A stretch of DNA of 64,000 nt from Salinimicrobium profundisediminis (GTDB taxonomy: Bacteria > Bacteroidota > Bacteroidia > Flavobacteriales > Flavobacteriaceae): NCBI RefSeq assembly GCF_026241755.1, contig NZ_JAPJDA010000001.1, positions 124,001-188,000 of the forward strand, written 5' to 3'. The notes beneath the pieces are model-generated. The model did no database searches, had not been told where the DNA came from, and saw only the letters and a program-made list of their open reading frames with translations. The position numbers and the translations under genes are program-made. Below are positions 11,550-63,902 of the stretch, piece by piece (the stretch's first letter is position 1; every line of letters begins with the position of its first letter).

Positions 11550-11566
11550 GTGTTATATTTACACTT
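11550..11566 (+). promoter_or_regulatory. Operator candidate GTGT-N7-ACAC upstream of second GH9
   Basis: GTGT (11550-11553), seven AT bases (TATATTT) and ACACTT (11561-11566) form an inverted repeat about 37 bases before the GH9 start. The right half matches the operators at araB (22213) and susC (63883). The spacer contains the best -7 box candidate, so a bound protein would block transcription. It is the weakest of the three sites because its left half lacks the extra AA. Confidence 0.45.
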
Positions 11567-11602
11567 CACCTGCCAATTCAGTGCAAATTTATTTAAATCG
11601 AG

Positions 11603-14146
11603 ATGAGTAGAATAAAAATTTTATCGGCTGTAGTGCTACTATTAATGGCATCCACTATGACATGGAGCCAGACATTAAAACTTAATGACCTGGAGTATTT
11701 TGAGACACAAGGGGTCAATGTTCTTGTTTACAATAACCTTTTTACAGGAGGGTTTAATGATGAAAAAACTGCCGGAATTGAGCTCATTCATCATGGCGTA
11801 AGAACAGCTCAAGGTGGAGCAGTGAGGCTTTCCAATACTCCTGAGCAGTGGGACCTCGTTCCCAGTATACCTACGCGGAAGGTAAACCGTGCTTCTAATA
11901 GTATTGAGTCTGTTCTTAGCTATGATGATTTTGATTTTGAATCTAGAGTAGTGGTTACTGCTAAGGGTAAAGGTGTGGAAATTTCGGTTTACCTGGACAA
12001 ACCAGTTCCTAAAGAGCTTGAAGGAAGCGTCGGGTTCAATCTAGAGTTTCTTCCCTCGCAATACTGGGCTAAAACCTACTTAATGGATGAGCGTATCAAC
12101 CGTTTTCCCCGTTACGTGGTTGGTAACACTGTTACAAGACCAAATTCGGAAAAGCTCAAACAGTATAAAGGTTATGAAACTTACGACGACAGAGGTACCG
12201 GAGAATTCATCGATGTGCTGCCTCTTGAAACAGGGCGCACCTTACTTCTTGCTCCCGATGAACCCGAACGCATGGTAAAGATCACTTCGCAGGATGCCGA
12301 TCTAATGCTTTTTGACGGCCGGGTACTTGCTCAAAACGGCTGGTTTGTGGTTCGGAGTTTGCTACCGGCAGGAAAAACCGGTAAAGTTTTAACCTGGACA
12401 GTAGAACCAAACGCCATTGACAAGTGGGTAAGAGACCCGAATATAGGTTTTTCACAGGTTGGATATCTACCCTCCCAGCAAAAAGTTTCAGTCATTGAAC
12501 TCGACAAAAAAGCTAAACCGCTTGAGAAAGCATCTGTTCATAAAATAGATGAGAACGGCAAAACTACCGAAGTATTTAATGGCAAAATAGAACCATGGGG
12601 TGACTACTATAAATATCACTATGTGAAATTCGATTTTTCTTCAGTTAACACTCCGGGTATTTATTATATCCAATATGGAGACACTAAAACAAACAACTTT
12701 ATAATTAACAAAAGCGTTTATGATAAAATTACTGACGCCACCAGCGACATTTGGATTCCAATACACATGAACCATATGTTCGTAAAGGAAGGATACAGGG
12801 TTTGGCACGGGGAACCTTTTAAAGATGGATATCTCCAGGCTCCGCCAAATACCGATCATTTTGACCTTCATGATCAGGGACCAACAACCGATACCGAATA
12901 TGAAGCCCTCGAATTGATCCCGGGACTGAACGTAGGTGGTTTTTTTGACGCAGGAGATTTTGATATCGAGACGCACTCCAATATTAGCGTGGTGCAGAAC
13001 TTTGTACAGACCTGGGAATCTTTTAAACCCTTACGCGACCAGACTTTTGTTGATCAGGAAGCAAGGCATGTTGTTCTTCATCGCCCAGATGGAACACCGG
13101 ACATCTTACAATTCATCGAGCATGGCACCCTGAACCTTGTGGCGCAGGCTGAAATTATTGGACACATGGCGCAGACCCTTTCCAATTCGGTACTCTATAA
13201 TTACCATCACCTCGGTGACGCCGCCTCATTAACAGACGGACTTCCATACAATGCCGAACTTGGCCCTTACGAAATAGCTGCTGACGGTGAGTCGAGCGGA
13301 GTTAAAGATGATATGTGGGCTTTTACTAGCCGCAATCCAAGTCTGGATCTTAGGGCCGCAACTGTGTTTGCTGCAGCAAGCCGGGCACTAAAAGGATATA
13401 ATGACGATCTTTCAGAAAGAGCACTATTTCAGTCCAAGAGGCTGCTGAAGGAAGCAACAGAATTGCTTGCCAAACAGCCACAGGACAGTACGGGTAGGGA
13501 GTGGGCATCTGTAGCAGATATTTCAACTAATCTTCAGCTTTATATCTCAACAGGAGAGCAACAATATAAAGATAAATTTCAGGAGCTTTTGTGGCCTGCC
13601 CTAGACCGGAATGTTAGTTTTGTAATACTGACTGCATTACACGGGATACCGCACATGGAAGCATCTTATAAGGAAAAGCTACGACCATATGTGGTGAAAT
13701 ACAATGAATATATTGCCGGGCTTGAAGACGATAACCCATACGGAGTACCTATTGGTCTTGGTAACTGGGCAGGGAGTGGATTCATAGTAAATTTTGGTAC
13801 TACCATTAGTTTTGCCAATGAACATTTCCCGGATATTATCGATGACAAGCATGCGTATAAAGCGACGGACTGGTTATTTGGCAACCATCCCTATCACAAT
13901 TATTCTTTAGTGGCAACAGTGGGTGCAGCACGTCCCAAGGAAGTATTCTATGGCAATAACAGAGCAGACTTTTCATTCATACCCGGCAATGTTGCTCCGG
14001 GTATTTTATTTAGAAAACCAGACCATTTTGAAAACTATGACGACTGGCCATTCCTGTGGGGACAAAACGAGGGTACGATTGGCGGAAACACCAGTTATTT
14101 AATCTTTGGGTCAGCTTTTAAAAATCTGGTAATAGACAAAGATTAG
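11603..14146 (+). CDS. Secreted GH9 family glycoside hydrolase (second copy)
   Basis: This 847-residue protein has a signal peptide (1-22, ending MTWSQ). The architecture equals the gene at 4874: an unassigned N-terminal domain (about 25-265, opening LKLNDLEYFETQGVNVLVYNN), an Ig-like CelD_N region (about 278-370, FSQVGYLPSQQKV) and a GH9 barrel. The catalytic Asp pair is in GGFFDAGDFD (Asp449/Asp452) and the general acid in LWGQNEGTIGG (Glu823). The two proteins are clearly paralogous but strongly diverged, so this is an old duplication or two separate acquisitions. It has its own leader with an operator-like repeat and ends in a strong hairpin terminator. Its presumed role is periplasmic cleavage of beta-glucan or xyloglucan-type oligosaccharides; the substrate is unproven. 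Confidence 0.85.
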   Translation: MSRIKILSAVVLLLMASTMTWSQTLKLNDLEYFETQGVNVLVYNNLFTGGFNDEKTAGIELIHHGVRTAQGGAVRLSNTPEQWDLVPSIPTRKVNRASNSIESVLSYDDFDFESRVVVTAKGKGVEISVYLDKPVPKELEGSVGFNLEFLPSQYWAKTYLMDERINRFPRYVVGNTVTRPNSEKLKQYKGYETYDDRGTGEFIDVLPLETGRTLLLAPDEPERMVKITSQDADLMLFDGRVLAQNGWFVVRSLLPAGKTGKVLTWTVEPNAIDKWVRDPNIGFSQVGYLPSQQKVSVIELDKKAKPLEKASVHKIDENGKTTEVFNGKIEPWGDYYKYHYVKFDFSSVNTPGIYYIQYGDTKTNNFIINKSVYDKITDATSDIWIPIHMNHMFVKEGYRVWHGEPFKDGYLQAPPNTDHFDLHDQGPTTDTEYEALELIPGLNVGGFFDAGDFDIETHSNISVVQNFVQTWESFKPLRDQTFVDQEARHVVLHRPDGTPDILQFIEHGTLNLVAQAEIIGHMAQTLSNSVLYNYHHLGDAASLTDGLPYNAELGPYEIAADGESSGVKDDMWAFTSRNPSLDLRAATVFAAASRALKGYNDDLSERALFQSKRLLKEATELLAKQPQDSTGREWASVADISTNLQLYISTGEQQYKDKFQELLWPALDRNVSFVILTALHGIPHMEASYKEKLRPYVVKYNEYIAGLEDDNPYGVPIGLGNWAGSGFIVNFGTTISFANEHFPDIIDDKHAYKATDWLFGNHPYHNYSLVATVGAARPKEVFYGNNRADFSFIPGNVAPGILFRKPDHFENYDDWPFLWGQNEGTIGGNTSYLIFGSAFKNLVIDKD

Positions 14147-14190
14147 ATATATAAGTCTATTCAAAAACTGATAAACACCTTATAATAATT

Positions 14191-14234
14191 AAGCGCAAGC
14201 AGTAAGTTTTAAATGTAACTTACAACTTGCGCTT
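14191..14234 (+). terminator. Strong intrinsic terminator after the second GH9
   Basis: AAGCGCAAG (14191-14199) pairs with CTTGCGCTT (14226-14234). Inside it GTAAGTT pairs with AACTTAC around a TTAAATGT loop, separated by short CA/AA bulges. TTTTTCTTTT follows on the plus strand. It lies 45 bases after the GH9 stop. The minus-strand esterase converges on it, but the T-run there is weak, so it acts mainly for the plus strand. Confidence 0.85.
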
Positions 14235-14290
14235 TTTCTTTTAGTTAGCAACATCTTTTAAAAAGATATTGACTTCTGGTTTGCCTCTCT

Positions 14291-15241: not shown

Positions 15242-15370
15242 AATTATTGGTTTTAAGGTTAATAATCTAAAATCTATATTATGGTTGTTATTATTCAGTT
15301 TCACCTGTCATTTAACTTTCACCTGGCTTAAATTTCTCAGTCCACTTCACTTTTCCTTGAAACATGAAAA

Positions 15371-16990
15371 TTATTCCCCGCTAAAGAATATCATTACTGC
15401 AGCCACTATTATTAGAATGATAACAGATACAACAATGTCCTTCCAGTTGTAACTATTCTTATTGTTCTTTTTCTCTTCCTCAGATATCGTTTGAAAAGTG
15501 AGATTATCTGTCTTCTCTTCAGGTGGAGCAGCAGTTAGATGACTCACCACTACGATTAGGATAATACAGAAGAGGAAAAACCATGCTCCAAAGGAAAGGA
15601 AATTACTTCCTCCCAAAACGTACAGGTAACCGTCTGGATCAAGTGAGTCTTTCATGATCTCAAGAACAATGCGTATCGCACCAACAATAAGGCCCGTTAT
15701 TAAAGTTACAAAAGCTCCGGTTGCATTAATTCTCTTGTAGAAAATTCCAAGGAGAAAAACTGCGGTAATGGGAGGAGCAATATAAGATTGTACACTTTGT
15801 AGATATTCATACAGCACACCAGAAATGTTAGCCATAATTGGTATCCAGATAATTCCGATAATTACAATTACAACGGTAGCTATCTGGCCTGTTCTTACCA
15901 GTTTCTTCTCTGGGGTATTAGGCCTAAGCTTCTTGTAAATATCCACAGTGAAAAGCGTGGAACAGGAGTTAAATACCGATGCAAGAGAACTCATTAGTGC
16001 TGCCAGCAATCCTGCAGCGACCAATCCTCTTAAACCAGATGGTAACAGGTTACTCATTAAAACAGGAAAAGCCTGGTCTGGGCTATCCCAGTGAAGTTCT
16101 CCTCTCATTTTAAGAGTAAGTGCAATAATCCCGGGAATAAGAAATAAAAATACCGGCAGTAGTTTTAAAAGTGCCCCGAAGATCGTTCCTCTCCTACCCT
16201 CTTTAATATTCCGGGCAGTAAGAGCTCTTTGAACGATATATTGATCTGTACACCAATACCAAATCCCAACAATTGTACTTGTGATCAACAATGAAGGCCA
16301 TGGGAAATCAGGATCTGTAGCAGGGCGCCACATATTAAAATATTCGGGACCTACAGTGTCTACCATACTCCCCCAACCTCCAACTTTATCGAGACCGATA
16401 AAGGTTAAAGCTGCTGCTCCAAGAACAAGAATGATAGCCTGCAGGGTCTCAGTGTAAACAACGGCTCTCATGCCGCCAAGTACTGTGTAAATACCCGTAA
16501 GGATTACAGTAGAAAGGGCTCCTGTCCAAAAATCTATTCCCAATAGCGCCGAAACCACAATTCCTCCTGCATAAATAGTTACAGAAATTTTAGTAAGAAC
16601 GTATGCTATAATTGAAAAAATAGACAGCACCCAACGAGACCTTGCATCAAATCTTTTTTCAAGAAATTCGGGCATTGTGAACACCCCGCTTCGGGCATAG
16701 AAAGGGAGGAATACCCAACCAAGAATAAGTACCACCCAGGCCTGGATCTCATAGATCAACATGGGAAGTTTATTTCCGGCACCGGCCCCTGCCAATCCCA
16801 CTACGTGTTCAGAACCTATGTTTGATGCAAAAATGGAAGCCCCAACAACAAACCAACCCACATTCCTTCCTGCTAAAAAGTAATCCTCTGTATTAGATTG
16901 TTTCTTTTGAATTACCCATACGGCAATCCCCAAAAGAATAGCAAAATAAATACCGATCGAAATCCAGTCAAAAGTATCTAATGTCTGCAT
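15371..16990 (-). CDS. Sodium:solute symporter (SSS/SGLT family), probable arabinose or pentose transporter
   Basis: This 539-residue membrane protein has about 13-14 hydrophobic segments. SSS-family hallmarks include the N-terminal SIGIYFAILLGIAVWVIQKK, EDYFLAGRNVGWFVVGASIFASNIGSEH, YTVLGGMRAVVYTETLQ and WYWCTDQYIVQRALTARN, which closely resembles SGLT sugar-binding and sodium-site regions. It would couple sodium influx to uptake of a monosaccharide across the inner membrane. It is separated by one base from galM, downstream of araBDA, which argues for L-arabinose (inference). The C-terminus ends in an extra helix after a basic/acidic loop. Confidence 0.9.
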   Translation of the reverse strand: MQTLDTFDWISIGIYFAILLGIAVWVIQKKQSNTEDYFLAGRNVGWFVVGASIFASNIGSEHVVGLAGAGAGNKLPMLIYEIQAWVVLILGWVFLPFYARSGVFTMPEFLEKRFDARSRWVLSIFSIIAYVLTKISVTIYAGGIVVSALLGIDFWTGALSTVILTGIYTVLGGMRAVVYTETLQAIILVLGAAALTFIGLDKVGGWGSMVDTVGPEYFNMWRPATDPDFPWPSLLITSTIVGIWYWCTDQYIVQRALTARNIKEGRRGTIFGALLKLLPVFLFLIPGIIALTLKMRGELHWDSPDQAFPVLMSNLLPSGLRGLVAAGLLAALMSSLASVFNSCSTLFTVDIYKKLRPNTPEKKLVRTGQIATVVIVIIGIIWIPIMANISGVLYEYLQSVQSYIAPPITAVFLLGIFYKRINATGAFVTLITGLIVGAIRIVLEIMKDSLDPDGYLYVLGGSNFLSFGAWFFLFCIILIVVVSHLTAAPPEEKTDNLTFQTISEEEKKNNKNSYNWKDIVVSVIILIIVAAVMIFFSGE

Positions 16991-16991
16991 A

Positions 16992-18167
16992 TTATTTTAC
17001 TGAAAATTTAAAGGAAGTTTTTGAAGTATATGTATCTCCCGGTTCAAGGATTACCGACGGAAAATTTTCCTGATTTGGCGAATCTGGATAGTGTTGTGTT
17101 TCCAGACAAAAGCCACTCCTTTTTTCATAATTCCCTTCCCCATACTGAAGCGGTAAAGTTCCATCCAGGAAGTTTCCTGAGTAAAACTGGATTCCGGGTT
17201 CGGTGGTGTGTACCTCCATAAAACGACCACTTGCCGGATGGTATGCAGAAGCAGCAAAACGCATCCCGCTATCCTGCTCATTCAGTACCCAGTTGTGATC
17301 ATAACCTCCGGCTCTTTGAAGCTGCTCATTGCTTGCTTCTATATCTTTTCCTGCTTCTTTCGGCTCTCTAAAATCAAAAGCTGTGTTTGCAACATCCTGT
17401 AGTTCTCCTGTAGGGATTAAATTTTCAGTAACAGGTAAATACTGGTCTGCATTGATCTTGATTTCATGATCAAGAATAGATTCAGAAAAATCTCCTGATA
17501 GGTTGAAATACGCATGTTGAGTTAAATTAACCACCGTTTTTTTATCGGTAGTTGCTTCATAGTCCACATCGAGAGAATTATCATCATTCAAAGTATAGGT
17601 AACAATAGTCTCAAGCTTACCAGGGTAGCCTTCTTCCATATCCTCACTCACGTAAGACAGCTTAAGCATCCTGGGACCCGCCTCTTCTACGGTCCATATT
17701 ACTTTATCAAAGCCTTTTTCCCCACCGTGTAAATGATTTTGTCCGTCATTTTGTGCAAGTGTGTATTCCTCACCATCAAGGGAGAACTTTCCATTTGCGA
17801 TCCTGTTACCAAAGCGGCCAATTAAAGCTCCAAAAAAGGGATTATCTTCAAGATATTGTTCCAGCGAATTAAATCCCAGTACAACATCTTCATAATTTCC
17901 TTCTGCATCTGGCGCCGTTAGAGAAGTGATTCGCCCCCCATAGGTGATGATATTCACTTCCATTCCGTTTTCATTCCTAAGGGTGTATTGTTCAACCTGC
18001 TCACCATCGGGTGTTGTGCCAAAATCCTCTTTCAAAACTTCCTGATCTACCTTAGTAGCATCTTCATCTAAAGTTTGAGTTTCTTTATTTTCATTTTTGC
18101 ACTGCACGAATGCAAGGGCTAATATCAATAACCCACAGTTTAAAAAACTTCTTTTTACAGTATTCAT
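16992..18167 (-). CDS. galM: Aldose 1-epimerase (mutarotase), lipoprotein
   Basis: This 391-residue protein has a lipoprotein signal (ALAFVQC, Cys23) and a galactose mutarotase beta-sandwich. Catalytic motifs are visible: NHLHGGEKGFDKVIW (His base region), TQHAYFNLSG (acid His) and FCLETQHYPDSPNQ (Glu). It interconverts alpha and beta anomers of aldoses. The lipid anchor puts it in the periplasm, where it would equilibrate arabinose, xylose or galactose released by PUL enzymes before uptake. It lies 17 bases after araA and one base before the symporter, so it belongs to the arabinose operon. Confidence 0.92.
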   Translation of the reverse strand: MNTVKRSFLNCGLLILALAFVQCKNENKETQTLDEDATKVDQEVLKEDFGTTPDGEQVEQYTLRNENGMEVNIITYGGRITSLTAPDAEGNYEDVVLGFNSLEQYLEDNPFFGALIGRFGNRIANGKFSLDGEEYTLAQNDGQNHLHGGEKGFDKVIWTVEEAGPRMLKLSYVSEDMEEGYPGKLETIVTYTLNDDNSLDVDYEATTDKKTVVNLTQHAYFNLSGDFSESILDHEIKINADQYLPVTENLIPTGELQDVANTAFDFREPKEAGKDIEASNEQLQRAGGYDHNWVLNEQDSGMRFAASAYHPASGRFMEVHTTEPGIQFYSGNFLDGTLPLQYGEGNYEKRSGFCLETQHYPDSPNQENFPSVILEPGDTYTSKTSFKFSVK

Positions 18168-18184
18168 AATGAGTTGGTTTGGTT

Positions 18185-19693
18185 CTACATCCCGTGTTGA
18201 AACAGGTGATAATAAACTTCGTTAGCGTTGATTTTATCTTTGAATTCCCGAACATTTGTTTTTTCATCTATCACCAGTAATTCAATGCCGGCGATGTCGG
18301 CAAAATCTTCCAGAAATTCTGTAGTCAGCGCCTGAGTGTAAACAGTATGATGAGCGCCCCCGGCAAGTATCCAGGAGGTTGCAGCAATGTCTAGATCTGG
18401 TTTTGGATCCCAAAGCACCCGTGCGACAGGTAAATTTGGCAGGTCTGCTTCAGGTTTTACGGCCTCCACTTCATTTACTATTAATCTGAATCTATTACCT
18501 AAATCGATCAAGGAAGCATTGAGTGCAGGGCCTTCAGGGGAATTGAATACCAGCCTAACCGGATCTTCTTTCCCTCCAATTCCCAGCGGATGTACTTCAC
18601 ATGAAGGTTTAGCATCGGCAATAGTGGGACAGATCTCGAGCATATGCGACCCCAGAACATAAGATTTCTGCGGACTAAAATGATAGGTATAATCTTCCAT
18701 AAAAGATGTTCCGCCCTCAAGACCTTGGGTCATTACTTTCATGGCTCGCAGAAGCGCAGCTGTTTTCCAGTCTCCCTCGGCTCCAAAACCGTAACCATCG
18801 GCCATTAAACGTTGTACGGCAATTCCCGGTAATTGTTTCAGTTCTCCGAGATTTTCAAAAGTATCGGTAAAAGCTTTAAAACCGCCTTCTTCTAGAAATG
18901 AACGAAGGCCAAGTTCAATTTTTGCAGCTTCCTTTAACGAGTCTCTTTTCTCACCATTCTTCTGAAGTTTTTCTGAAAGATTATATGAAGATTCATACTC
19001 CTCCAGCAACTTGTCTACATCTGCGTCTGAAACCTTGTTGATATGCGCCACAACTTCCGAAGAATCATAGCCATTTACAGACATTCCAAATTTCATCTGG
19101 GCTGCCACTTTATCTCCTTCAGTTACAGCAACCTCGCGCATATTGTCACCAATTCGAGCCACTTTAAGGTTCTGCAGCTCGTCCCAACCCAGCACCACTC
19201 TGCACCAATTGCCAATCTTTTGCTGTACGCGCTCTTCCTGCCAGTGACCTACGATCACCTTTCTCTTTTTGCGCATTCTGGACATCATAAAACCGAATTC
19301 CCGGTCTCCGTGTGCAGACTGGTTCAGGTTCATGAAATCCATATCGATCTTTCCCCAGGGAATCTCGGCGTTGAATTGTGTATGAAGGTGGCAAATAGGT
19401 TTCTTGAGAATACTAAGGCCTCTAATCCACATTTTGGCGGGGGAAAAAGTGTGCATCCAGGTGATGATACCAATACATTTTTTCTCGCTGTTGGCCAGCT
19501 GGAGAAGGTCTGTGATCTCATCGGGCGTCTTTACCGTCTCTTTGTGGACAATTTTTAATGGGATCTTATTTGATCCATTAAACCCATCAACTATGGCTGC
19601 GGAATTCTTTGCGACCTGGTTAAGAGTTTCTTCCCCGTAAAGGTGCTGACTCCCGGTTACAAACCAAATTTCCTTTTCTTCTGTACTGATCAT
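18185..19693 (-). CDS. araA: L-arabinose isomerase
   Basis: This 502-residue protein matches the normal length of AraA. Motifs include the N-terminal [17 protein letters not shown], the central [30 protein letters not shown] and the C-terminal [17 protein letters not shown], with the catalytic metal-binding Glu/His residues. It converts L-arabinose to L-ribulose in the cytoplasm. It follows araD after 81 bases that contain a strong hairpin with a T-run, so its level may be set by read-through. The downstream gene galM starts 17 bases later. Confidence 0.98.
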
Positions 19694-19774: not shown

Positions 19775-20479
19775 TTATTTCTGACCGTAATAGGCATTTT
19801 TGCCATGTTTACGTTCGTAGTGTTTTTTAATAAGTGAATCCTTTAGCCTGGGGGCTTCGGGATTTATCTGAAGGGTCAAAAATGCCATTTTTGACACCTC
19901 TTCCAAAACCTTGCTGTTGTACACCGCTTTGGCTGCATTCTTGCCCCAGGTAAATGGTCCGTGGTTTCCTATAAGCACCATTTGAACTTCTTCATAAGAC
20001 AGGTTTTTATCCCTGAAGCAGTCCAGGATCTGTATCCCGGTATTGTGTTCATAATTCCCTTCAATGAGATCATCCCGCATTGGCGGAGCACAGGGAATAT
20101 CGGTGGTTAGATGGTCGGCGTGAGTAGTTCCAAAGATTGGAACATCTCTTTGCGCCTGCGCCCATGCTACCGAGTAGGTTGCGTGGGTGTGTGCCACTCC
20201 GCCAATTTCCTTCCAGTTCTTATATAAGAAAGCGTGAGTTTTAGTGTCTGAAGAAGGCCTCATTTCCCCCTCAAGGACATTGTTATCAAAATCGAGGATC
20301 ACAATATCTTCAGGTTTTAGATCTTCATAGGGCACGCCGCTGGGTTTAATCGCAAAAACACCTTTTTCGCGGTCTACGGCACTCACATTTCCGAAGGTAT
20401 AGATCACGAGATTCAATGCATTGAGCTGCATATTGGCCTCATAACATTCCTGTTTCAATTCCTGATAAATAGAACTCAT
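19775..20479 (-). CDS. araD: L-ribulose-5-phosphate 4-epimerase
   Basis: This 234-residue protein is typical of AraD. It has the zinc-binding HTHATYSVAWAQA, a third His in GTTHADH, GNHGPFTWGKNA and the family C-terminus KHYERKHGKNAYYGQ. It converts L-ribulose 5-phosphate to D-xylulose 5-phosphate, joining arabinose to the pentose phosphate pathway. Its start overlaps the end of araB by four bases (ATGA), so the two are translationally coupled. Bases 19875-19895 form a perfect palindrome encoding part of SKMAFLT, shared with the intergenic repeat at 7365. Confidence 0.97.
   Translation of the reverse strand: MSSIYQELKQECYEANMQLNALNLVIYTFGNVSAVDREKGVFAIKPSGVPYEDLKPEDIVILDFDNNVLEGEMRPSSDTKTHAFLYKNWKEIGGVAHTHATYSVAWAQAQRDVPIFGTTHADHLTTDIPCAPPMRDDLIEGNYEHNTGIQILDCFRDKNLSYEEVQMVLIGNHGPFTWGKNAAKAVYNSKVLEEVSKMAFLTLQINPEAPRLKDSLIKKHYERKHGKNAYYGQK
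19875..19895 (-). repeat. Palindrome inside araD, same core as the repeat at 7365
   Basis: GTCAAAAATG and CATTTTTGAC flank a single C on the plus strand. Read on the minus strand, 22 bases are identical to 7365-7386. Here the element lies in frame within a conserved part of araD without breaking the protein. Confidence 0.7.
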
Positions 20480-22161
20480 TGTTGGTTTATTTTTCTGGTT
20501 GCACTTTTTTCGGCAAAGGCGCCCAATTCTTTGTACTCCTGCATTAATTGGGCATAGATTTTCACCTCCTCTTTCTTCGGAAGATATTCTGCTTCAAAAT
20601 CACTGCCCAGGGTTTTACTGGCTTCGATCACGTTTGGATAAAGACCTGCAGCAACAGCTGCATAAATGGCCGCCCCAAGGGCAGGTGCTTCATCTGAAGC
20701 TGCTACTTTAATAGGCATATTTAGCACATTTGCCAGGGTTTGCATGATAAAAGGGGATTTTCGGGCCACTCCTCCAATTCCTATCACGCTATTGATCTTC
20801 ACACCTTCTTCTTCAAAACGGTTCACGATCTCTTTAGAACCAAAGCAAATTGCATTGATCAAAGCTTTAAAAATATGGGGGGCTTTAGATCCTAAAGACA
20901 GGTTGGAAATGGCACTTTTCAACTCCTGATTGGCATCGGGGGTTCTTCGGCCGTTGATCCAATCCAGGGCGATTGGCAGGCTCTCAAAAATGTCAATTTT
21001 CTCTGCCTCTTCAGAAAGTTTCCTGATGAAGTTCTTTTCGGCTTCTGCCTTTAGTTGCTCTTTTTGTTCTTCAGAAAGTATATCCGAATTATAAATAAGA
21101 TTATCCAGGGGCCAGGAAAGTACATCCTTGAACCACGCCAGCACATCTCCAAAAGCGGACTGCCCTGCTTCGAGACCTATCATCTGCGGAATTACCGAAC
21201 CGTCTACCTGCCCACAAATTCCTTTTACAGTTTTATCTCCAACGTTTTCTTTGGAAGATATAATAATGTCGCAGGTGGAGGTTCCCATTACCCGAACTAA
21301 AGTGTGTTTATCGATCTTAGCACCTACAGCGCCAGAGTGTGCATCAAAAACCCCTACTGCAATAACACAATCTGTACTTAATCCTAATTTTTGAGCCCAT
21401 TTGGCACTTAAGTTCCCGGCAACCTCATCGGAGGTGTAGGTCTCGTTGTATAATCTTCCGCGAAGCTCACCTAAATAAGGGTCCAGCCTGTTGAGGAAAT
21501 CTTCGGAAGGAAGTCCGCCCCAGCTTTCGTGCCACATAGCTTTATGCCCGGCAGCACAGCGGCTTCGTTTGAATGACTGCAAATCCTGATCTTCAATGAG
21601 CATAAAGGTCATAAGATCACAATGCTCCATCCAGGAATAAGCTGCATTTTTAACCTTTTCATCTTCCCTGATGACGTGGGTGATCTTCGCCCAAAACCAT
21701 TCGGAGGAATAAATTCCTCCTTCGTATTTGGTATAATTCTCTCCTCCCCAATTCTCTGCCAGCTCATTGATCTCATTAGCTTCCTTAATGGCAGTATGGT
21801 CTTTCCACAACACCATCATAGCATTGGGGTTCTCTTCAAAACCCTGCACAAGTGCCAATGGAGTTCCTTCTTTAGTAACTGCAATTGGGGATGAGCCAGT
21901 GGTGTCTATGCAGATCCCTTTTACAGCCTGGCCATCAATTCCACTTTTTTCTACAACTCCTTTAATGGTTTTTTCAAGACCTTCAATATGATCTAAAGGG
22001 TGTTGCCGGAATTGATTTATCGCTGCGTTACAGTATTTCTGCTCCTTCCATCGTGGGTAATAATAAGTATCTGAGGCCAGTTCCTTCCCGTTTTCGGAGT
22101 CCACCAAAACAGCTCTCACCGAGTCGGTTCCATAATCAAGGCCTATAACATAATTCTTCAT
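20476..22161 (-). CDS. araB: Ribulokinase
   Basis: This 561-residue FGGY-family kinase has the N-terminal phosphate motif GLDYGTDSVRAVLVD, CIDTTGSSPIAV, the substrate region VGVFDAHSGAVGA, VRVMGTSTCDIII and the FGGY second signature IGIGGVARKSPFIMQTLANVL. It phosphorylates L-ribulose with ATP. It is the first gene of araB-araD-araA-galM-symporter. A TATATTTG -7 box 30 bases before the start, with an inverted repeat over the -33 region, shows where the operon promoter lies. Confidence 0.97.
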   Translation of the reverse strand: MKNYVIGLDYGTDSVRAVLVDSENGKELASDTYYYPRWKEQKYCNAAINQFRQHPLDHIEGLEKTIKGVVEKSGIDGQAVKGICIDTTGSSPIAVTKEGTPLALVQGFEENPNAMMVLWKDHTAIKEANEINELAENWGGENYTKYEGGIYSSEWFWAKITHVIREDEKVKNAAYSWMEHCDLMTFMLIEDQDLQSFKRSRCAAGHKAMWHESWGGLPSEDFLNRLDPYLGELRGRLYNETYTSDEVAGNLSAKWAQKLGLSTDCVIAVGVFDAHSGAVGAKIDKHTLVRVMGTSTCDIIISSKENVGDKTVKGICGQVDGSVIPQMIGLEAGQSAFGDVLAWFKDVLSWPLDNLIYNSDILSEEQKEQLKAEAEKNFIRKLSEEAEKIDIFESLPIALDWINGRRTPDANQELKSAISNLSLGSKAPHIFKALINAICFGSKEIVNRFEEEGVKINSVIGIGGVARKSPFIMQTLANVLNMPIKVAASDEAPALGAAIYAAVAAGLYPNVIEASKTLGSDFEAEYLPKKEEVKIYAQLMQEYKELGAFAEKSATRKINQQ

Positions 22162-22190: not shown

Positions 22191-22198
22191 CAAATATA
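22191..22198 (-). promoter_or_regulatory. -7 promoter box (TATATTTG) of the araBDA operon
   Basis: On the minus strand TATATTTG matches the Bacteroidota sigma factor -7 consensus TAnnTTTG exactly, 30 bases before the araB start. No clear TTTG is visible at -33; that position is occupied by the operator candidate at 22213-22233. Confidence 0.55.
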
Positions 22199-22212: not shown

Positions 22213-22233
22213 TAAGTGTCATTAAAACACTTA
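22213..22233 (-). promoter_or_regulatory. Operator candidate TAAGTGT-N7-ACACTTA upstream of araB
   Basis: A perfect inverted repeat with 7-base arms and a 7-base spacer (CATTAAA) begins 14 bases upstream of the -7 box and covers the -33 region. A protein bound there would repress. The same pattern lies before the first susC (63883) and, less perfectly, before the second GH9 (11550). From memory, Bacteroidota arabinose genes can be controlled by a Nudix-type AraR repressor; I cannot confirm that its site equals this one. Confidence 0.65.
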
Positions 22234-26469: not shown

Positions 26470-28833
26470 TTAAAGATCCACCTGAAGTTTTTCACCATGA
26501 TACTTAATATTTTTTGAGGTAGATCCCTGTTTTTCTCCCACCAATTTAATATTAAAAACTCTCTCCTTCAGCATGCCCTCAAATTCACCTTTACGGGGAT
26601 GAATTATTAACTGTTTTTGTTCATCCTTCCATTCAAACTTTATTTCAGAATAGGCACCATCTTCATAATTGTAATTATCATTTTCATCCTCATATAATAT
26701 AAATTCACCATTTGCGCCCGGATATACTTTAACTTCCAGATTATTCCAGTCATGTTGAGTAGCATATTGCACTTTTGGTCCTATAGGAAGGATGGAACCT
26801 GCACGAACATATAGTGGCATAACATCTATTGGTGTTTCCTTTTCGATACGTTTTCCTCCATTGAACTTTCTTTCGTCCCAGTAGTCGTACCAAATGGCAC
26901 CAGCAGGAAGGTAAATGTCCTTTGACTTCACTTCTCCAAAATTTTCTGATTTGTTTACTGTGTACATGGATCTCGTGACCGGGGCTACAAGAATGGATTT
27001 TCCAAACATATATTGATCGTTTAAATCATGCACCTTACTGTCACCAAGAAAATCCATTACTAAAGCCCGCATCATACTTGAATTATTATGAGTAATATCC
27101 CAGGCAGAAGAATAAATGTAAGGCAGTAGGCTATAACGCAGGTTTATAAACTTTTCTAATGCATCGTAGATGTCATCCCCCTTTTTTCCAAACTGATAGA
27201 TCTCTCTTGGTGCATCTGCACCATGGGAACGCATCATTGGAGTAAAGGCTGCAAACTGGAGCCACCGGGCATATAATTCCCGATATTCAGGATCCTCGAG
27301 CTTGTCCTTGAATTTACTAAGGAAGAAACCTCCAATATCAGTATTCCAATAAGGTATTCCTGTAAGTGAAAAGTTTAAGCCGGCCGGAATTTGTTCCCCC
27401 AGGGCATCCCATGAAGCAGTAACATCTCCAGACCATGTGTTGGCCCCATACCGCTGTTGTCCGGCGAAAGCTGAACGTGTCAAAATAAAAACTCTTTTAT
27501 CTGAAGTTTCTTGTCTCTGATTTTTATAAACTCCTCCCACACTTAACACGGGATAAGCATTACGAACCTTTCTAAAAGAGCCTAAATGAGTCTGAATATC
27601 CAGATCCTCAGGTTTAAATTCAAGATGATCGGGCTCTGTTGAATCCATCCACCATCCATCGATTCCCAGGGAATAAAGACCCTTCCTTAAATATTTCCAG
27701 TAAATATCTCTTGCCTCTGGATTGTAAGCATCATACACCCTTACGCCAGATGGATAATTCATATCTGGTGGCCATGTATCTTTTCCTGATAAAGGCCAGG
27801 TTTGAAATTCAAGAAGATCATTACCTGCTTTTAAATCTTTATAGGGTTGGGTCTCAGGACCAAAAGATGACCATATGGAAATAATGATATGAGCATTAAG
27901 ATCATGAATTTGATCAATCATCTTCTGTGGCTCAGGAAAATTGGGATTTAAAAATTCCATAGCATTCCAATGATAGTTGTCTCCCCAATACTGCCAGTCC
28001 TGGATAATACCATCTAAAGGAACATTTAATTCCCGATATTTTTTGACTACCCCAACTGTTTCTTCCTGGCTCTTATATCGTTCTTTACTCTGCCAATACC
28101 CGAATGTCCATAATGGAAACATAGGCACTTCTCCCGTAAGATGTCGCATATTTGCGATTACCCCATCAGAATTTCCTCCGTCCATAAAATAGTAGTCAAT
28201 CCCATCTCCAACCTCGGATTCAAATTGGGTCCTTTCAATATTATCCCTGAAAGTAGTAGGTGAATAATTATCCCAGAACAACCCATATCCTTTAACCGAT
28301 TGAAAAAAAGGCACGAAATCCCAGGTGTTACCCTGTATCATTTTAACTTCCTGATTTCTCTGTGACATTTTTCCATTCTGAAGGATTCCAAGTCCGTATA
28401 TAGCTTCCTCTGGATCTAACTTAAAAGATTGTGAAACGCTGTAAGTATCCTCCCCGGCATCATTGAATTTCACGAATGAGGCACTAATCTCCTGCAGGAG
28501 CACCCGCCCCCCTAATCTTTTAAAGGTAATATTCCCATTTCTAAGATCTAGTAGCACCTCAAGATCTTTTGAGCTTAAAGAAACATAATCACCCTTTTCC
28601 CTTGTATTGAAGCTTACATCTTCCGGATCCATAATTACTGAAAGACTTTCTTTTTTATAGGAAGATCCCTCAGGGTATTTAATTACCCGAACCAAGTCGG
28701 GCTTAAAAAATTGTATCTCAACCTCAATCGAGTCAATAGTTGCAGATATCCCACCTTCAGTTTCTTGAAATGATTGCGCTACAACTCCCCAACATGCCAG
28801 GAGACCAATAAAAAAACTAGAACAGATCTTCAT
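26470..28833 (-). CDS. GH31 alpha-glycosidase (alpha-xylosidase/alpha-glucosidase type)
   Basis: This 787-residue protein has a signal peptide (ending WGVVAQ), an N-terminal beta-sandwich, a TIM barrel and C-terminal sheets. The catalytic nucleophile is Asp397 (GIDGWWMDSTEPDH) and the acid/base Asp470 (GANTWSGDVTASW). Other GH31 blocks are LWTFGYWQSKERY, DGIIQDWQYWGD and PMMRSHGADAPREI. The DSTEPDH form is common in Bacteroidota alpha-xylosidases and related alpha-glycosidases. In a xylan/xyloglucan locus an alpha-xylosidase is likely, but alpha-glucosidase or alpha-galactosidase cannot be ruled out. About 120 bases separate it from the upstream GH43. Confidence 0.9.
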   Translation of the reverse strand: MKICSSFFIGLLACWGVVAQSFQETEGGISATIDSIEVEIQFFKPDLVRVIKYPEGSSYKKESLSVIMDPEDVSFNTREKGDYVSLSSKDLEVLLDLRNGNITFKRLGGRVLLQEISASFVKFNDAGEDTYSVSQSFKLDPEEAIYGLGILQNGKMSQRNQEVKMIQGNTWDFVPFFQSVKGYGLFWDNYSPTTFRDNIERTQFESEVGDGIDYYFMDGGNSDGVIANMRHLTGEVPMFPLWTFGYWQSKERYKSQEETVGVVKKYRELNVPLDGIIQDWQYWGDNYHWNAMEFLNPNFPEPQKMIDQIHDLNAHIIISIWSSFGPETQPYKDLKAGNDLLEFQTWPLSGKDTWPPDMNYPSGVRVYDAYNPEARDIYWKYLRKGLYSLGIDGWWMDSTEPDHLEFKPEDLDIQTHLGSFRKVRNAYPVLSVGGVYKNQRQETSDKRVFILTRSAFAGQQRYGANTWSGDVTASWDALGEQIPAGLNFSLTGIPYWNTDIGGFFLSKFKDKLEDPEYRELYARWLQFAAFTPMMRSHGADAPREIYQFGKKGDDIYDALEKFINLRYSLLPYIYSSAWDITHNNSSMMRALVMDFLGDSKVHDLNDQYMFGKSILVAPVTRSMYTVNKSENFGEVKSKDIYLPAGAIWYDYWDERKFNGGKRIEKETPIDVMPLYVRAGSILPIGPKVQYATQHDWNNLEVKVYPGANGEFILYEDENDNYNYEDGAYSEIKFEWKDEQKQLIIHPRKGEFEGMLKERVFNIKLVGEKQGSTSKNIKYHGEKLQVDL

Positions 28834-28953
28834 ATCTAAATTTAATTACTTTAAAATGCACTGAGCAACCTTGCCCTGTGAGAAACTTGTAGCGCAATAT
28901 TCTAATAATTGAAGGCTAATACTGCGAAGCAATATCTTATTACATTTTTATTA

Positions 28954-30660
28954 TTACTCAGGTATTGCATCATTAGCAGATGTTGCATACAAGCCTAATA
29001 ATGCCCCGGTAAAACCTCCGGCAACATTAGTGGACAGAATATCTCCGGACACAGTACCACCTAAATTCTGAAAATCTTCTCCTTTCAAAGCATAACTGAA
29101 CTGATAGTCATCTTCTTCTGCTTCTACTCTCAGCTGAACCTCATCTTTATATTCAATTTCCTTACTGGCCAGTATTTTGGAAGAACCTTTTTCAGTCCTC
29201 TCCAACACTAAATAATATTTGTTGTCTTTCCTGGTTACACCAAATACATAATTAAATTTTTCACTTTGAACAGCTGTGATACCGGCTAAATCTTTTTCAG
29301 ACTTTGGCTTGTAACTCATAGTAGCAGTAAAGGAAAAATCTTTGTGCTGTTGACGATGAAAAAGTGTAGAGGTAGGTTTAACTTCCTTTATATTGGTTTC
29401 AAAAGGGTTAATTTGAAGACCTTTTTTGGTGAACTTAATGAAATCTTCACGAGGCCCTCTTAATCCAACCCAACGGTAATCTAATTTATCAGAACTAAAA
29501 TCCTCGGTATAAGTAAAGTTTCCATTAGGGAAATAATCACCTTCTCCGGTTTTATTTTCAACACCTTCGGGCATTTTAAGTTTTGGTTCCATGGGAACAA
29601 GACCATTTATAAAAACAGGAAACTTTCCAGACCAGTCTACCGGTAAAATAAAAGTTTCTCTTCCGGTATTTACCCTACCTTTTTCATTTGGGCGTATTGC
29701 TAAAAATACCCCCCAGTATTCACCGTCGGGTCCTTCAACCAAATCGGCATGTCCAGCCCAGTCTACTTTGTAATCCCGGTTTTGCGAAAGATATCTTTGT
29801 GTTAGGATTGGATTTGAGGGTGCAGGCTCATAAGGTCCCATTGGCTTATCACTTACAAATATCACCTCACTATGCCAACCTCCTGTACCACCTTCGGCAC
29901 ACATTAGATAATAAAGACCATCTTTTTTATAGATATGAGGAGCTTCAATCCAGATGGGTTTATCTGCAAGATCGACTCCTCCATCTACAATTATCTTATC
30001 AGTTCCCTCAATCACCTGATCTTTTTCCAGATCATATTCCCAAATTTTAATCACGCGATGCCCCTGGTATAGTTCTTCTCCCTGGTTTGGAGCATCATTA
30101 TGGACTACATAGGCCTTCCCGTCGTCATCAAAAAAGATCGCCGGATCTATACCCTGAAAGTTCAATTTGTACGGATCGCTCCAACCTTGCATAGGATCTT
30201 TGGTTTTAACCACAATGTTTCCAAAACCACCGGCAAACTGGGTGGTGATCATATAAAACGTATCATTGTGAGGGTTATACCGAATATCCGGAGCATAAAT
30301 TCCCGCACTTATACCTGTATCAAATACTTTTAACTGTGTTTTTCTATCCAGAACGTGGCCAATTTGCGTCCAGTTCACCAGGTCATTTGAATGGAAGATT
30401 GGCACCCCCGGAAAAACAGCAAAGGATGAGGAAACTAAATAGTAATCATCTCCTTTTCGGGCAATTGCCGGATCTGGATACATTCCCTGTAAAATAGGAT
30501 TATAGAATTCATCCTCCTCCAAAGGATTCTCATTATACACATCATCATTCCCTTCATAAACCGCTTTGGAAAATACAGGTACATTTTTCTGCGCACTACA
30601 GCCGGTAAAGACAAAAAGGGCTAAGAGAATGGTGATTAAGAACGGTTGATTTTTTTTCAT
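28954..30660 (-). CDS. GH43 lipoprotein (beta-xylosidase/alpha-L-arabinofuranosidase, XynB-like)
   Basis: This 568-residue protein has a lipobox FTGC (Cys21), a five-bladed propeller (about 50-370) and a C-terminal concanavalin-like domain (about 390-560). The catalytic triad is visible: Asp63 (GMYPDPAIAR, base), Asp172 (QGIDPAIFFDDDG) and Glu239 (IWIEAPHIYKK, acid). The two-domain form is typical of beta-xylosidases and arabinofuranosidases of the GH43_1/10 type. No acidic residues follow the lipidated Cys (CSAQKN), which suggests periplasmic rather than surface location. Confidence 0.9.
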   Translation of the reverse strand: MKKNQPFLITILLALFVFTGCSAQKNVPVFSKAVYEGNDDVYNENPLEEDEFYNPILQGMYPDPAIARKGDDYYLVSSSFAVFPGVPIFHSNDLVNWTQIGHVLDRKTQLKVFDTGISAGIYAPDIRYNPHNDTFYMITTQFAGGFGNIVVKTKDPMQGWSDPYKLNFQGIDPAIFFDDDGKAYVVHNDAPNQGEELYQGHRVIKIWEYDLEKDQVIEGTDKIIVDGGVDLADKPIWIEAPHIYKKDGLYYLMCAEGGTGGWHSEVIFVSDKPMGPYEPAPSNPILTQRYLSQNRDYKVDWAGHADLVEGPDGEYWGVFLAIRPNEKGRVNTGRETFILPVDWSGKFPVFINGLVPMEPKLKMPEGVENKTGEGDYFPNGNFTYTEDFSSDKLDYRWVGLRGPREDFIKFTKKGLQINPFETNIKEVKPTSTLFHRQQHKDFSFTATMSYKPKSEKDLAGITAVQSEKFNYVFGVTRKDNKYYLVLERTEKGSSKILASKEIEYKDEVQLRVEAEEDDYQFSYALKGEDFQNLGGTVSGDILSTNVAGGFTGALLGLYATSANDAIPE

Positions 30661-47851: not shown

Positions 47852-49003
47852 TTATTTTGCTGCAGCCAGTTCTATAAGTTCCTTCACAACAGGTTTTGGA
47901 TTATTTTCACGATCGAATAGCAACGGATAATCGGTTCTTCCTCTCACCGGCCAGTTATTCTTCCAGGAATTCCCGTCATTCACTCCCCAAAGGGCAACCC
48001 TTTCAATTTTATCCTGATGTTTTAGGAACAGTTCAAAAAATTCTACATATCTCTTTGTGAATTGTTGCTCAACATCGGCTGGCAGACCATTAGGAAAGGG
48101 ATTCATTTTATCTTCATACTCATAATTATCTGAGATTTCTGCGCCGGCATCACCCCAGGGTGACGGTAAGACACTAAGATCTAATTCAGTGATCATCACT
48201 TTCCCCAGGTTTCCATATGCTTCCAGACTTTTTTCAAATTCACGAATATCAGGATGGTTTAATCCAATATGTCCCTGCATTCCTATTCCATTTACGGTAA
48301 TGCCCTCCTTTTCCAGCTTTTCTACCATTCTCACTACCCCGGCACGCTTTCCTGGCATTGCCATAGAATAATCATTGTAATAAAGCTGGGCTTCAGGATC
48401 GGCTTCGTGTGCAAATTCAAAGGCCAGTTTTATAAAATCTTCACCTAAAATTTGATAGAACTTGCTATTTCTATAATTCCCGTCATCTTCTATAGCCTCA
48501 TTAACCACATCCCAGGAATGAATTCTGCCTTTATACCTGCCCACCACGGTATGAATATGATCTTTCATTCTTTGGGTAAGCACTTCCTTAGACACCGTAT
48601 TTCCATCTTTATCGACAAAAAACCAGTCAGGAGCCTGGGAATGCCATATCAAGGTGTGCCCGTGGATATGCATATTATTTTCCTCGCCTATTTTCACAAA
48701 TTCATCGGCAAGTTCAAAATTGAACTCCCCTTCTTTCGGTTGAATTCGTGCACTTTTCATAATATTTTCGGCAACAATAGAATTGAAATTCTCTGTCGCA
48801 ACTTTAAGTTCTTCAGGCTGCCTTCCCATAATTTGCCAGGCATTGAGCGTAGTACCTATATAAAATTTATCTTCAAAAGCTCCTTTTAATGTTTTAACTT
48901 CAGTCTGATAAGATAAAGAATCTTTTTCCTGGCTTCTGCAATTAACAAATGTTAAACTAACACTTATAAAAAAAAGAAAAGTTAGTGCCCTGTTATTTTT
49001 CAT
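47852..49003 (-). CDS. GH10 endo-beta-1,4-xylanase, lipoprotein
   Basis: This 383-residue protein has a lipoprotein signal (LTFVNC, Cys22) followed by a single GH10 barrel. The acid/base is Glu169 (SWDVVNEAIEDDG) and the nucleophile Glu273 (KVMITELDLSV); HGHTLIWHSQAPDWF and ALWGVNDGNSW are further GH10 blocks. The residues after the lipid Cys (RSQEKDS) are not acidic, which suggests a periplasmic enzyme that shortens imported xylo-oligosaccharides. It is the first gene of the long 22-49 kb run, with 265 bases of leader. Confidence 0.96.
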   Translation of the reverse strand: MKNNRALTFLFFISVSLTFVNCRSQEKDSLSYQTEVKTLKGAFEDKFYIGTTLNAWQIMGRQPEELKVATENFNSIVAENIMKSARIQPKEGEFNFELADEFVKIGEENNMHIHGHTLIWHSQAPDWFFVDKDGNTVSKEVLTQRMKDHIHTVVGRYKGRIHSWDVVNEAIEDDGNYRNSKFYQILGEDFIKLAFEFAHEADPEAQLYYNDYSMAMPGKRAGVVRMVEKLEKEGITVNGIGMQGHIGLNHPDIREFEKSLEAYGNLGKVMITELDLSVLPSPWGDAGAEISDNYEYEDKMNPFPNGLPADVEQQFTKRYVEFFELFLKHQDKIERVALWGVNDGNSWKNNWPVRGRTDYPLLFDRENNPKPVVKELIELAAAK

Positions 49004-60565: not shown

Positions 60566-60576
60566 AAAAAACGATT

Positions 60577-63500: not shown

Positions 63501-63774
63501 CCTCTAATGAGTAATTTCCATCAATATCTGTAGCAGTACCTTTTTCAGGAAACCCTTTTTCAAAAACATTAGCCCCAGGAAGACCAAAACCATCTATAGA
63601 CGAGGTTACCGTTCCTGTTACAATAGCCTGTTGCTGAATTGGATTCTCCAATCCAACACCAAAACTGTCTACTCTATTGGCCGCTAATAGGGAGCCAGAA
63701 AAGAAAAATTTTAAAAATATCCCTAAGAAAATATATCTTATCAGATATGAAAATTTAAATAGATGTAAAGTCAT
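60577..63774 (-). CDS. SusC/RagA TonB-dependent outer membrane transporter (first pair)
   Basis: This 1065-residue protein has a long hydrophobic signal (1 to about 32). The carboxypeptidase-like domain (about 50-125) contains GLPGANVFEKG and ATDIDGNYSLEV. The TonB-box region is LEEVVIVGYGTQRK (130-143), the plug contains PLILVDGVERPEFFNNMS and FGSRGANGVIIVTTKRG, and the barrel ends GFNVTF. It is the first gene of the surface-uptake operon susC-susD-susC-susD-SGBP-GH10-GH5. The leader contains an operator-like repeat shared with araB, which suggests joint control of uptake and arabinose catabolism. Confidence 0.97.
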   Translation of the reverse strand: MTLHLFKFSYLIRYIFLGIFLKFFFSGSLLAANRVDSFGVGLENPIQQQAIVTGTVTSSIDGFGLPGANVFEKGFPEKGTATDIDGNYSLEVSSVDAVLVFSYVGFGTVEKSVAGQSVVNVVLEPDQDALEEVVIVGYGTQRKETVVGAVTQTTGEVLERTGGVSDVGSALTGALPGLITSASTGLPGGEAPQIVIRGQNSWNGTSPLILVDGVERPEFFNNMSISSIASMSVLKDASATAVFGSRGANGVIIVTTKRGLSGKAEITANFSSTMKLVSKLPGTYDAYDAIGIRNRAIEYELSTNPASWGQMIPEEIRDKYRNPANLAERERYPDVNWQKTLFKDYAMSYNANVNIRGGTDFVKYFATIDFQNEGDLFRDFENDRGYDPGYEYNRLNFRSNLDFQLTSTTTLRTDLGGTYGVRKSPWGGGNEYPFWDAAYNGDPTLFMPRYSDGNYGYYAPNAQKGLNSVRILSLSGVEKETTARISTTFVLDQDLGMILKGLKFNGTLAVDNTFIENERGVNDLYNDAQQKWIDPETGEVTLAEGISSTTGIDFYNPGPRWSPATGTVDNDLTWRKIFYQLKLDYANTIADDHNFNLMGLMNRQKDARGNGIPAYREDWVFRATYNYKSKYMLEYNGAYNGSEKFAPEYRFAFFSSGGIGWTITEEEFMQSVSFLDMLKLRASYGEVGDDNIGARFLYMDEWAYGGNSQLGLVGEGGELSPYAWYIQQQVGNPFVRWETVYKYNLGMDFGLFKGFLDGSVDIFRDDREDILMSGDRAIPSYFGTGAPAANLGRVRTQGYEITLGLNHTFSNGLNVWADFAMTHAEDEVLERDDPQLLADYQKDAGYALGQARTHINSGYYNTWDELYGSTTHNTNNLNKIPGNYQILDYNGDGVIDSFDAAPFGYSGVPQNTYSTNVGIEWKGFSIFTQFYGVNNVTRQVVFNSLAGQSNRVYDQGTYWSIDTPNADTPMPRWNSVVSGYNIGNRYFYDGSYLRLKNAEIAYRFQHDMVKSFGLQNLRVYINGNNLLLWTDMPDDRESNFAGTGWASQGAYPTVKRFNLGFNVTF

Positions 63775-63882
63775 ATTGCCAAAGTGTTAATTTATGTTAT
63801 AATATGAGTCTTTAGAAGTTTCTGCTACAAAACAAATGCACGAAAACGATTGAATTATAGTTTAGAATTAACCTCGATTTAT

Positions 63883-63902
63883 TAGTGTAGATTTTACACT
63901 TA
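63883..63902 (-). promoter_or_regulatory. Operator candidate TAGTGT-N7-ACACTTA upstream of the susC operon
   Basis: GTGT (63885-63888), a 7-base AT-rich spacer (AGATTTT) and ACACTTA (63896-63902) form an inverted repeat 109 bases before the susC start. It differs from the araB operator at only one arm position. A perfect -7 box was not found downstream of it, so its relation to the promoter is unclear. Confidence 0.6.

Follow-up and report, generated by a model that had tools for sequence, protein, structure and literature searches.

AraR and XylR have been named as the two sugar regulators of the NrtR type (PMC3878776). In Bacteroides thetaiotaomicron, BtAraR (BT0354) joins a Nudix-like effector domain to an NrtR winged helix and, according to Chang et al. 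(2015), controls ara genes, GH51, and susCD operons (PMC4666351). The operators AGTGTTACTTTTACACC and AAGTGTAAAAAAGACACTT, which are among those used in that paper, have GTGT-N7-ACAC arms and spacing (PMC4666351). XylR (BT0791) of Bacteroides belongs to the same family and is assigned to a sugar pathway (PMC3878776, PMC4666351). The AraR of Bacillus subtilis is likewise an L-arabinose-relieved repressor of ara genes, but is a GntR-type protein of unrelated architecture (PMC4666351). Here, these systems are compared with a locus of Salinimicrobium profundisediminis (G000; 4.04 Mb in 101 contigs). The window, i.e. the whole 64,000-nucleotide stretch C13:124001-188000, carries three copies of the inverted repeat GTGT-N7-ACAC. 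The three repeats are very probably the operators of a Nudix/NrtR-type AraR that is encoded beyond the right edge of the window and would repress arabinose catabolism, an arabinoxylan locus, and a GH9 gene until relieved by L-arabinose. This type of switch is already known; it was described in gut bacteria, and the present case would lie outside that group. A single pentose-responsive repressor that links arabinose catabolism to uptake had been proposed by an earlier model's reading of the letters alone (the sequence-only reading) and is the best-supported explanation. Its leading candidate, a Nudix-type AraR, is supported by an adjoining gene, by the residues of its product, by the published operators, and by conservation in relatives.

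All three repeats lie where the sequence-only reading had located them. The predicted operators, with their scores in the weight matrix described below, are:

11547 to 11567, no strand assigned: predicted AraR operator before the second GH9 gene, letters GTGTTATATTTACACTT at 11550-11566, matrix score 16.7, a 21-bp block common with the sister genome G009

22213 to 22233, no strand assigned: predicted AraR operator before araB, TAAGTGT-N7-ACACTTA (TAAGTGTCATTAAAACACTTA), matrix score 22.2

63882 to 63902, no strand assigned: predicted AraR operator between the divergent susC and araR genes, letters TAGTGTAGATTTTACACTTA at 63883-63902 with GTGT beginning at 63885, matrix score 24.4, kept in G009

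These are the only exact matches to GTGT-N7-ACAC in the window and precede araBDA, susC, and the second GH9 gene. In 100 dinucleotide shuffles of the window, the mean number of matches was 0.34 and the largest 2. Compared with the published Bacteroides AraR motif, as the sequence-only reading had proposed, the window sites have equal arms and equal N7 spacing (PMC4666351). The units that they head were named by family scan:

11603 to 14146, plus strand: second GH9 gene (CelD_N and Glyco_hydro_9)

15371 to 18167, minus strand: aldose 1-epimerase (araM-like) and sodium:solute symporter

18185 to 19693, minus strand: araA, L-arabinose isomerase

19775 to 20479, minus strand: araD-like class II aldolase/epimerase

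20476 to 22161, minus strand: araB-like FGGY kinase

22327 to 63774, minus strand: two susC/susD pairs and a glucuronoarabinoxylan-type enzyme set, presumably one transcript

The enzyme set comprises two GH10, five GH43, one GH5, one GH95, two GH97, one GH31, one GH51, and one GH127 enzyme as well as three esterases, one of which is glucuronoyl esterase-like.

A search of the genome with the NrtR winged-helix family gave three genes, on contigs C13, C90, and C3. The C13 match at C13:188522 lies beside susC:

63775 to 64000 within the window, no strand assigned: susC(-)/araR(+) intergenic region, holding one operator

C13:188069 to 188758, plus strand: araR, divergent from susC, with its start 69 bp beyond the right edge of the window

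The sequence-only reading was right that the window itself holds no regulator gene, because the araR start codon lies just past its end; the AraR/NrtR-like gene that it had advised looking for nearby is the one found there. Among the 35 window proteins scanned (9 further overlapping open reading frames, ORFs, were not scanned), no regulator domain was detected at E<=1e-5. No GntR-type regulator was seen among these 35 either, and a genome-wide GntR search was not made. The C13 protein carries PF21906 (NrtR_WHD, 87.1 bits), AraR_C (PF19368, 45.1), and NUDIX (44.3) domains, all above cut-off. Its closest match in the PDB is BtAraR (5bs6, E 2e-72), to which it is 50% identical over 214 aligned residues. 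The REUXEE sequence forms part of the Nudix catalytic motif (PMC4666351); by reading, this motif is impaired in the C13 protein, where GGFLKKDEDLDQAANRILHHLTGI is without the REUXEE glutamates.

In BtAraR, Arg34, Arg86, and His131 bond all four hydroxyls of L-arabinose, and Tyr5, Phe36, Gly47, Gly48, Phe49, Val92, and Phe129 lie around the sugar (PMC4666351). The C13 protein keeps all of these residues except Val92, which is replaced by Thr. In a wider set, which comprises the best 80 of 575 AraR loci from named organisms, Arg34, Arg86, and His131 are kept in 80, 80, and 78 loci, respectively. The corresponding positions of the GalR-like paralogue on C90 include Val36, Ser48, and Leu129, and those of the XylR-like paralogue on C3 include His34, Lys36, and Trp49. 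On the DNA side, the BtAraR crystal structure places Lys179, Arg180, and Asn181 against GTGT in the major groove, with residue 179 contacting the first G; Lys184, Lys204, and Arg205 likewise contact DNA (PMC4666351). Lys179, Arg180, and Asn181 are kept in the C13 protein. In a FastTree phylogeny of 74 proteins, re-rooted on the organism's own XylR-like protein, BtAraR, the C13 AraR, and 47 loci form a clade of 49 with a local support of 0.956, and the GalR-like proteins fall outside. The tree excludes 31 of the 80 loci, mostly from Flavobacterium and Chryseobacterium, which were removed by hand, and the relative L052, whose sequence was too short. Two retained loci (L178 and L180) stand outside the AraR clade, and the deeper nodes are weak (0.458-0.774).

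The Bacteroidota -7 promoter element has the consensus TAnnTTTG, and a matching box lies close to the araB operator:

22191 to 22198, minus strand: putative araB promoter box TATATTTG, matching TAnnTTTG

The box lies downstream of the operator, 32 nt from the operator start. Among the araB heads of the 80-locus set, 25 have a site. Within 60 nt, 18 of them show a TAnnTTTG box, whose distance from the site start is 31-33 nt in every case, and the other seven show none. This distance would put the araB operator across the -33 region, where the sequence-only reading had placed it, and is consistent with simple occlusion. The DNA of G000 and its sister genome G009 is closely similar from about 15 nt above the araB operator to the start codon and diverges further up; within the operator, the spacer differs and the arms are kept. 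At the araR, susC, and GH51 heads of the 80-locus set, the distance from operator to promoter is not fixed.

By analogy with BtAraR, the switch in Salinimicrobium would operate by AraR binding, with arabinose as the effector and repression as the outcome. Without L-arabinose, an AraR dimer would occupy GTGT-N7-ACAC; at araB, the bound protein would mask the -33 region and shut out RNA polymerase. L-Arabinose, freed by the locus's own enzymes, would enter the Nudix-like pocket, and its binding would rotate the DNA-binding domains and release the operators. With the release, the genes for arabinose catabolism and symport would be induced together with the arabinoxylan susCD/enzyme operon and the GH9 gene. 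The araR gene would probably be induced as well, since one of the operators is located upstream of it.

Conservation was followed in 60 genomes (G000 and 59 relatives) and in the 80-locus set. AraR with at least 54% identity is present in eight of the 60 genomes, the own genome included; the next hits reach at most 50% and are GalR-like or of other types. The same eight genomes carry araB (E<1e-200), and a ninth araB match with 40% identity occurs in a genome without AraR. In the AraR-bearing genomes, a site with at most one mismatch heads whichever unit holds the ara genes. It precedes araB in G000 and G009, both araB and araR in G040 and G053, and lies between araR and araB in G012. In G021, it precedes araR-araB and is overlapped by a 172-aa ORF on the opposite strand, and in G004 it is found only at the araR/GH97 head, at the start of a long run that ends in ara genes. 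The susC/araR operator is conserved in G009. In the wider set, whose 80 loci are not independent because many come from Flavobacterium, 27 loci have a perfect site upstream of araR and 35 have one with a single mismatch (62 of 80 together). Within 300 bp before araR, RTGT-N7-ACAC or GTGT-N7-ACAY occurs in 60 of 80 loci, and the other spacers from 0 to 16 give 0-6; before araB, the N7 form occurs in 26 of 40 loci vs 0-4 for other spacers. After dinucleotide shuffling, GTGT-N7-ACAC is the most enriched 4-bp palindrome at both heads (araR, 16/80 vs 0.05 expected; araB, 18/40 vs 0.1), and by raw count it ranks first of 4352 before araB. The motif is thus conserved upstream of ara genes in relatives, one of the two properties on which the sequence-only reading had staked its proposal. 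That reading had also suggested a weight-matrix scan, which was carried out with a symmetric matrix built from other genomes, i.e. from 131 unique sites of AraR loci with the own genome left out and S. marinum included. In 83 kb of the own genome, the three window sites rank first (63882), second (22213), and fourth (11547). The third rank is held by a site at 48946 (20.9), and the next match reaches 7.2; twenty simulated sequences reach 15.0 at most.

Several observations weigh against the assignment to AraR. In the 4.04-Mb genome, the bare GTGT-N7-ACAC occurs at 11 places vs 28 for a reversed control pattern, and the flanked pattern with at most two mismatches occurs 313 times vs 665, so that genome-wide over-representation of the bare palindrome was rejected. 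In our opinion, the reversed pattern is a poor control, its TCA/TGA words being frequent in coding DNA. The training sites of the matrix were selected with a pattern, which fixes its arms in advance, so that only flanks and spacer could be learned. At C24:159630, a site within coding sequence reaches 15.0, the simulated maximum, and so does the site before GH51-GH127-araB in G003. G004 has no site at araB or GH51 and, despite having AraR, carries a 47% identical GH9 homologue without a site at up to one mismatch. Before araR, 18 of the 80 loci have no site, and by raw count the perfect palindrome ranks there only 38th of 4352, below poly-A/T palindromes. Neither susC nor GH9 shows a TAnnTTTG box at a plausible distance from the operator. 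Moreover, the overall identity to BtAraR is 52% for the GalR-like paralogue of this genome and 50% for the C13 protein. Finally, in the C13 protein Lys184 is replaced by Asn, Lys204 by Arg, and Arg205 by Lys, and position 183 is Ile. The six DNA contacts are reported as identical among the orthologues of Chang et al., where the statement is descriptive and not family-defining (PMC4666351). Among the 80 loci, Lys184 occurs in 12 and Arg205 in three; the lost contacts mark a sub-branch, because most of the loci differ as the C13 protein does.

The sequence-only reading had named occurrence at chance frequency genome-wide as a reason to abandon the proposal. On this point, the genome-wide counts speak against the bare motif. 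Of the eight bare-motif places outside the window, seven fall within stop-to-stop frames that span 60 aa or more; the remaining one, on C17, lies outside such frames and has a G+C-rich spacer. The window trio is consequently the sole set of bare-motif places that are both outside frames and A+T-rich. Genome-wide, AAGTGT-N7-ACAYTT has just two matches, at araB and at 48946. With one mismatch, the flanked pattern occurs at eight places outside the window, six of which are in longer open frames. C90:154588 lies outside frames within a longer inverted repeat that by reading resembles a terminator, and C22:7015 precedes a GH9 gene and is overlapped by short stop-to-stop frames of 70 and 68 aa. Specificity stems from flanks and position, not from the bare motif. 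As a marker of AraR, genome-wide motif presence was rejected: AAGTGT-N7-ACAYTT is present at least once in 39 of the 60 genomes, some of them without AraR, and does not track AraR. The matrix is stricter about flanks than Bacteroides operators require, since three B. thetaiotaomicron operators score 4.8, 9.8, and 22.2 in it.

Of the competing explanations, the one that survives best holds that only the araB and susC/araR sites are AraR operators, and that the GH9 site and the following site in a GH10 gene are chance matches:

48946 to 48966: candidate fourth AraR site in a GH10 ORF, core AAGTGTTAGTTTAACATTT on the minus strand at 48947-48965, score 20.9

As a whole this is unlikely, although the bare palindrome does occur at 11 genome places, the GH9 site is the lowest of the three with a poor left flank, and the GH9 homologue of G004 lacks a site. 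The upstream regions of the second GH9 gene in G000 and G009 share a 21-bp identical block, which is the site; the DNA is otherwise dissimilar, with a next shared block of 8 bp, and 300 base shuffles of the comparison give a shared block of 13 at most. The G003 orthologue, whose protein is 95% identical, has an independent perfect site at another position. The first GH9 gene (4772-7360) and its G004 and G009 counterparts have no site with up to one mismatch. A third GH9 gene of the own genome, on C22 (50% identical), is preceded by a one-mismatch site at C22:7015-7033, about 100 bp upstream, which is kept in G009 and scores 14.0 in the matrix. In G009, the second-GH9 counterpart lies directly downstream of araR and not beside the ara genes. 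GH9 and its operator have stayed together through rearrangement, as the G009 copy adjoins araR with an identical site, and the description of this GH9 as otherwise unlinked, given in the sequence-only reading, does not hold there.

For the GH10 site, a chance match remains a fair explanation. The site spans nucleotides 39-57 of the gene, i.e. codons of a lipoprotein-type signal peptide, in a GH10 gene that follows a 265-bp gap. It is kept in G009, where the coding sequence could account for the conservation, and an intragenic operator is possible. The claim in the sequence-only reading that no further copy exists in the intergenic regions stands for the strict motif, with three copies only; it misses the strong match at 48946-48966, which is in an ORF and not intergenic. 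Between the two GH9 genes, window positions 9810-11291 encode a vanadium-haloperoxidase/PAP2-like protein (DUF6851, VCPO_2nd). In G003 (C1:427734, perfect) and G009 (C1:2508411, one mismatch), AraR-type sites also precede large genes that adjoin the ara/GH9 regions and match none of the window proteins.

It is very unlikely that the sites are instead read by another NrtR paralogue (the GalR-like C90 or XylR-like C3 protein), or by several of them, such that the regulon would also answer to xylose or galactose. The genome does hold three NrtR_WHD genes, the GalR-like protein is slightly closer to BtAraR by overall identity, and, with one changed end base allowed, GTGT-N7-ACAC serves other paralogues elsewhere. 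A perfect copy lies upstream of three of 24 non-AraR NrtR relatives (L057, L061, and L064), a site lies upstream of a XylR-like gene in G040, and the pfkA-linked loci described below carry the site as well. However, neither the GalR-like nor the XylR-like gene of the own genome has GTGT-N7-ACAC in its upstream region, and their products have Thr at 179 and Pro at 180, respectively. By reading, the GalR-like gene (G000:C90:34370-35038; L012, L018:9359-10189) adjoins galK/galT-like and symporter/galM-like genes, and the XylR-like gene adjoins xylB/xylA-type genes. In addition, araB co-occurs with the AraR type only.

The GalR-like set, which consists of nine loci and the own one (L052 was left out, as its recognition helix was not found), extends this comparison. 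GTGT-N7-ACAC is absent upstream of all ten, and Lys179 is replaced by Thr, Ala, Ser, Met, or Asp. AraR is favoured as the reader of GTGT because the GalR-like proteins lack Lys179 and their loci lack GTGT sites. The discrimination is not absolute, since A is the first base in about one-third of the arms behind the AraR matrix. AATGT-N7-ACATT occurs upstream of four of the ten GalR-like loci, and the own locus has TTGT-N7-ACAA. The latter was rejected as the common operator of GalR-like regulators, its exact form being found in the own genome only (one of 24 loci). As a lead only, GalR-like operators may start with a base other than G. In G040, a perfect GTGT-N7-ACAC at C1:1430394 (in L099) precedes a pair named galK/galT-like by reading, which hints at a crosstalk of arabinose and galactose control in that genome.

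A non-regulatory origin of the repeats, as terminators, mobile-element remnants, or chance, is strongly disfavoured and scarcely credible: the arms are short and A+T-rich intergenic regions are rich in palindromes (37 of 4352 outrank this one by raw count before araR), but the N7 spacing is fixed, the enrichment after dinucleotide shuffling is the highest, the distance to the -7 box at araB is constant, and the sites co-occur with AraR.

With AraR as the reader of the three sites, the locus shares with BtAraR the arabinose-bonding Arg34, Arg86, and His131, the operator GTGT-N7-ACAC, and, by prediction, the control of ara genes, GH51, and susCD operons (PMC4666351). It differs in several respects from the B. 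thetaiotaomicron system. A single operator stands at araB here, whereas tandem sites are present in B. thetaiotaomicron; araR is divergent from susC and not inside araMPRDAB; and Lys184, Lys204, and Arg205 are replaced (PMC4666351). The predicted regulon additionally includes GH9 and the GH10/GH43 arabinoxylan set. Three AraR-regulon loci of B. thetaiotaomicron are also controlled by hybrid two-component systems (HTCS), unlike the locus here, where the 35 scanned window proteins have no regulator domain (PMC4666351). Compared with Bacteroides XylR, the separate XylR-like gene beside xylose-type genes (by reading) has Pro at 180 and no GTGT-N7-ACAC upstream, and compared with the AraR of B. subtilis, the gene beside susC is of the Nudix/NrtR type. 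A regulator, an effector, and a target list can thereby be proposed for a large plant-xylan locus from its DNA alone. If the assignment is true, the arabinose side chain and not the xylose backbone would signal for the whole locus. The AraR regulon, known from gut Bacteroides and Prevotella, would then reach into Flavobacteriaceae and other Bacteroidota, and GH9 would come under AraR. A literature search that covers subscription papers thinly gave nothing on AraR/NrtR in Flavobacterium. Within the enzyme set, GH43 and GH31 are separate at 26470-30660, and their G009 counterpart (C1:2485640-2489659) is one open frame of 1339 aa.

The same palindrome also appears with a further paralogue. In G037, G038, and G052, which are without AraR of at least 54% identity, a Nudix paralogue is divergent from pfkA, with GTGT-N7-ACAC between the two genes:

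L184:6538-8608, L185:4815-6947, L187:8539-10427, and L209 to L238: pfkA-linked Nudix/NrtR paralogue loci

These genomes have the highest numbers of distinct AAGTGT-N7-ACAYTT places among those without AraR (G052, 14; G037, 12; G038, 9). In G052, 12 of the 14 places are intergenic, and six precede glycolytic genes, namely a glucokinase-like ROK gene, pfkA, fba, gapA, pgk, and gpmI. In the family scan behind these names, pfkA, fba, and gpmI are above cut-off, ROK and pgk are below, and gapA is above in its G037 copy; the remaining heads were named by reading or left unnamed. In G038, one of the four places inspected (of nine) precedes pckA; in G037, six of 12 places were inspected. The pfkA-linked paralogue is present in 66 of 246 genomes of the order. 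Among the best 30 of these loci, pfkA lies no more than 1.5 kb away in 28. These 28 also carry a site, changed in one end base at most, within the 400 bp preceding the regulator gene; eight other spacers together give two hits. The recognition helix reads Asp-Lys-Arg-Asn in 29 of the 30 loci, and the thirtieth was not matched. The paralogue is apparently an undescribed glycolysis regulator of Flavobacteriales; a literature search on NrtR/Nudix with glycolysis, in which subscription papers are thinly covered, gave nothing beyond PMC3878776. On balance, though with considerable doubt, GTGT-N7-ACAC appears to be an operator shared by the Bacteroidota Nudix sugar repressors with an Asp-Lys-Arg-Asn helix. 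Residue 179 would set the first base (Lys, GTGT; Thr, Ala, or Ser in GalR-like proteins, ATGT or TTGT), with AraR serving arabinose/arabinoxylan and the pfkA-linked member controlling glycolysis in its entirety, with pckA among its targets in one further genome. A residue-to-base prediction follows, in which position 179 is paired with the first operator base.

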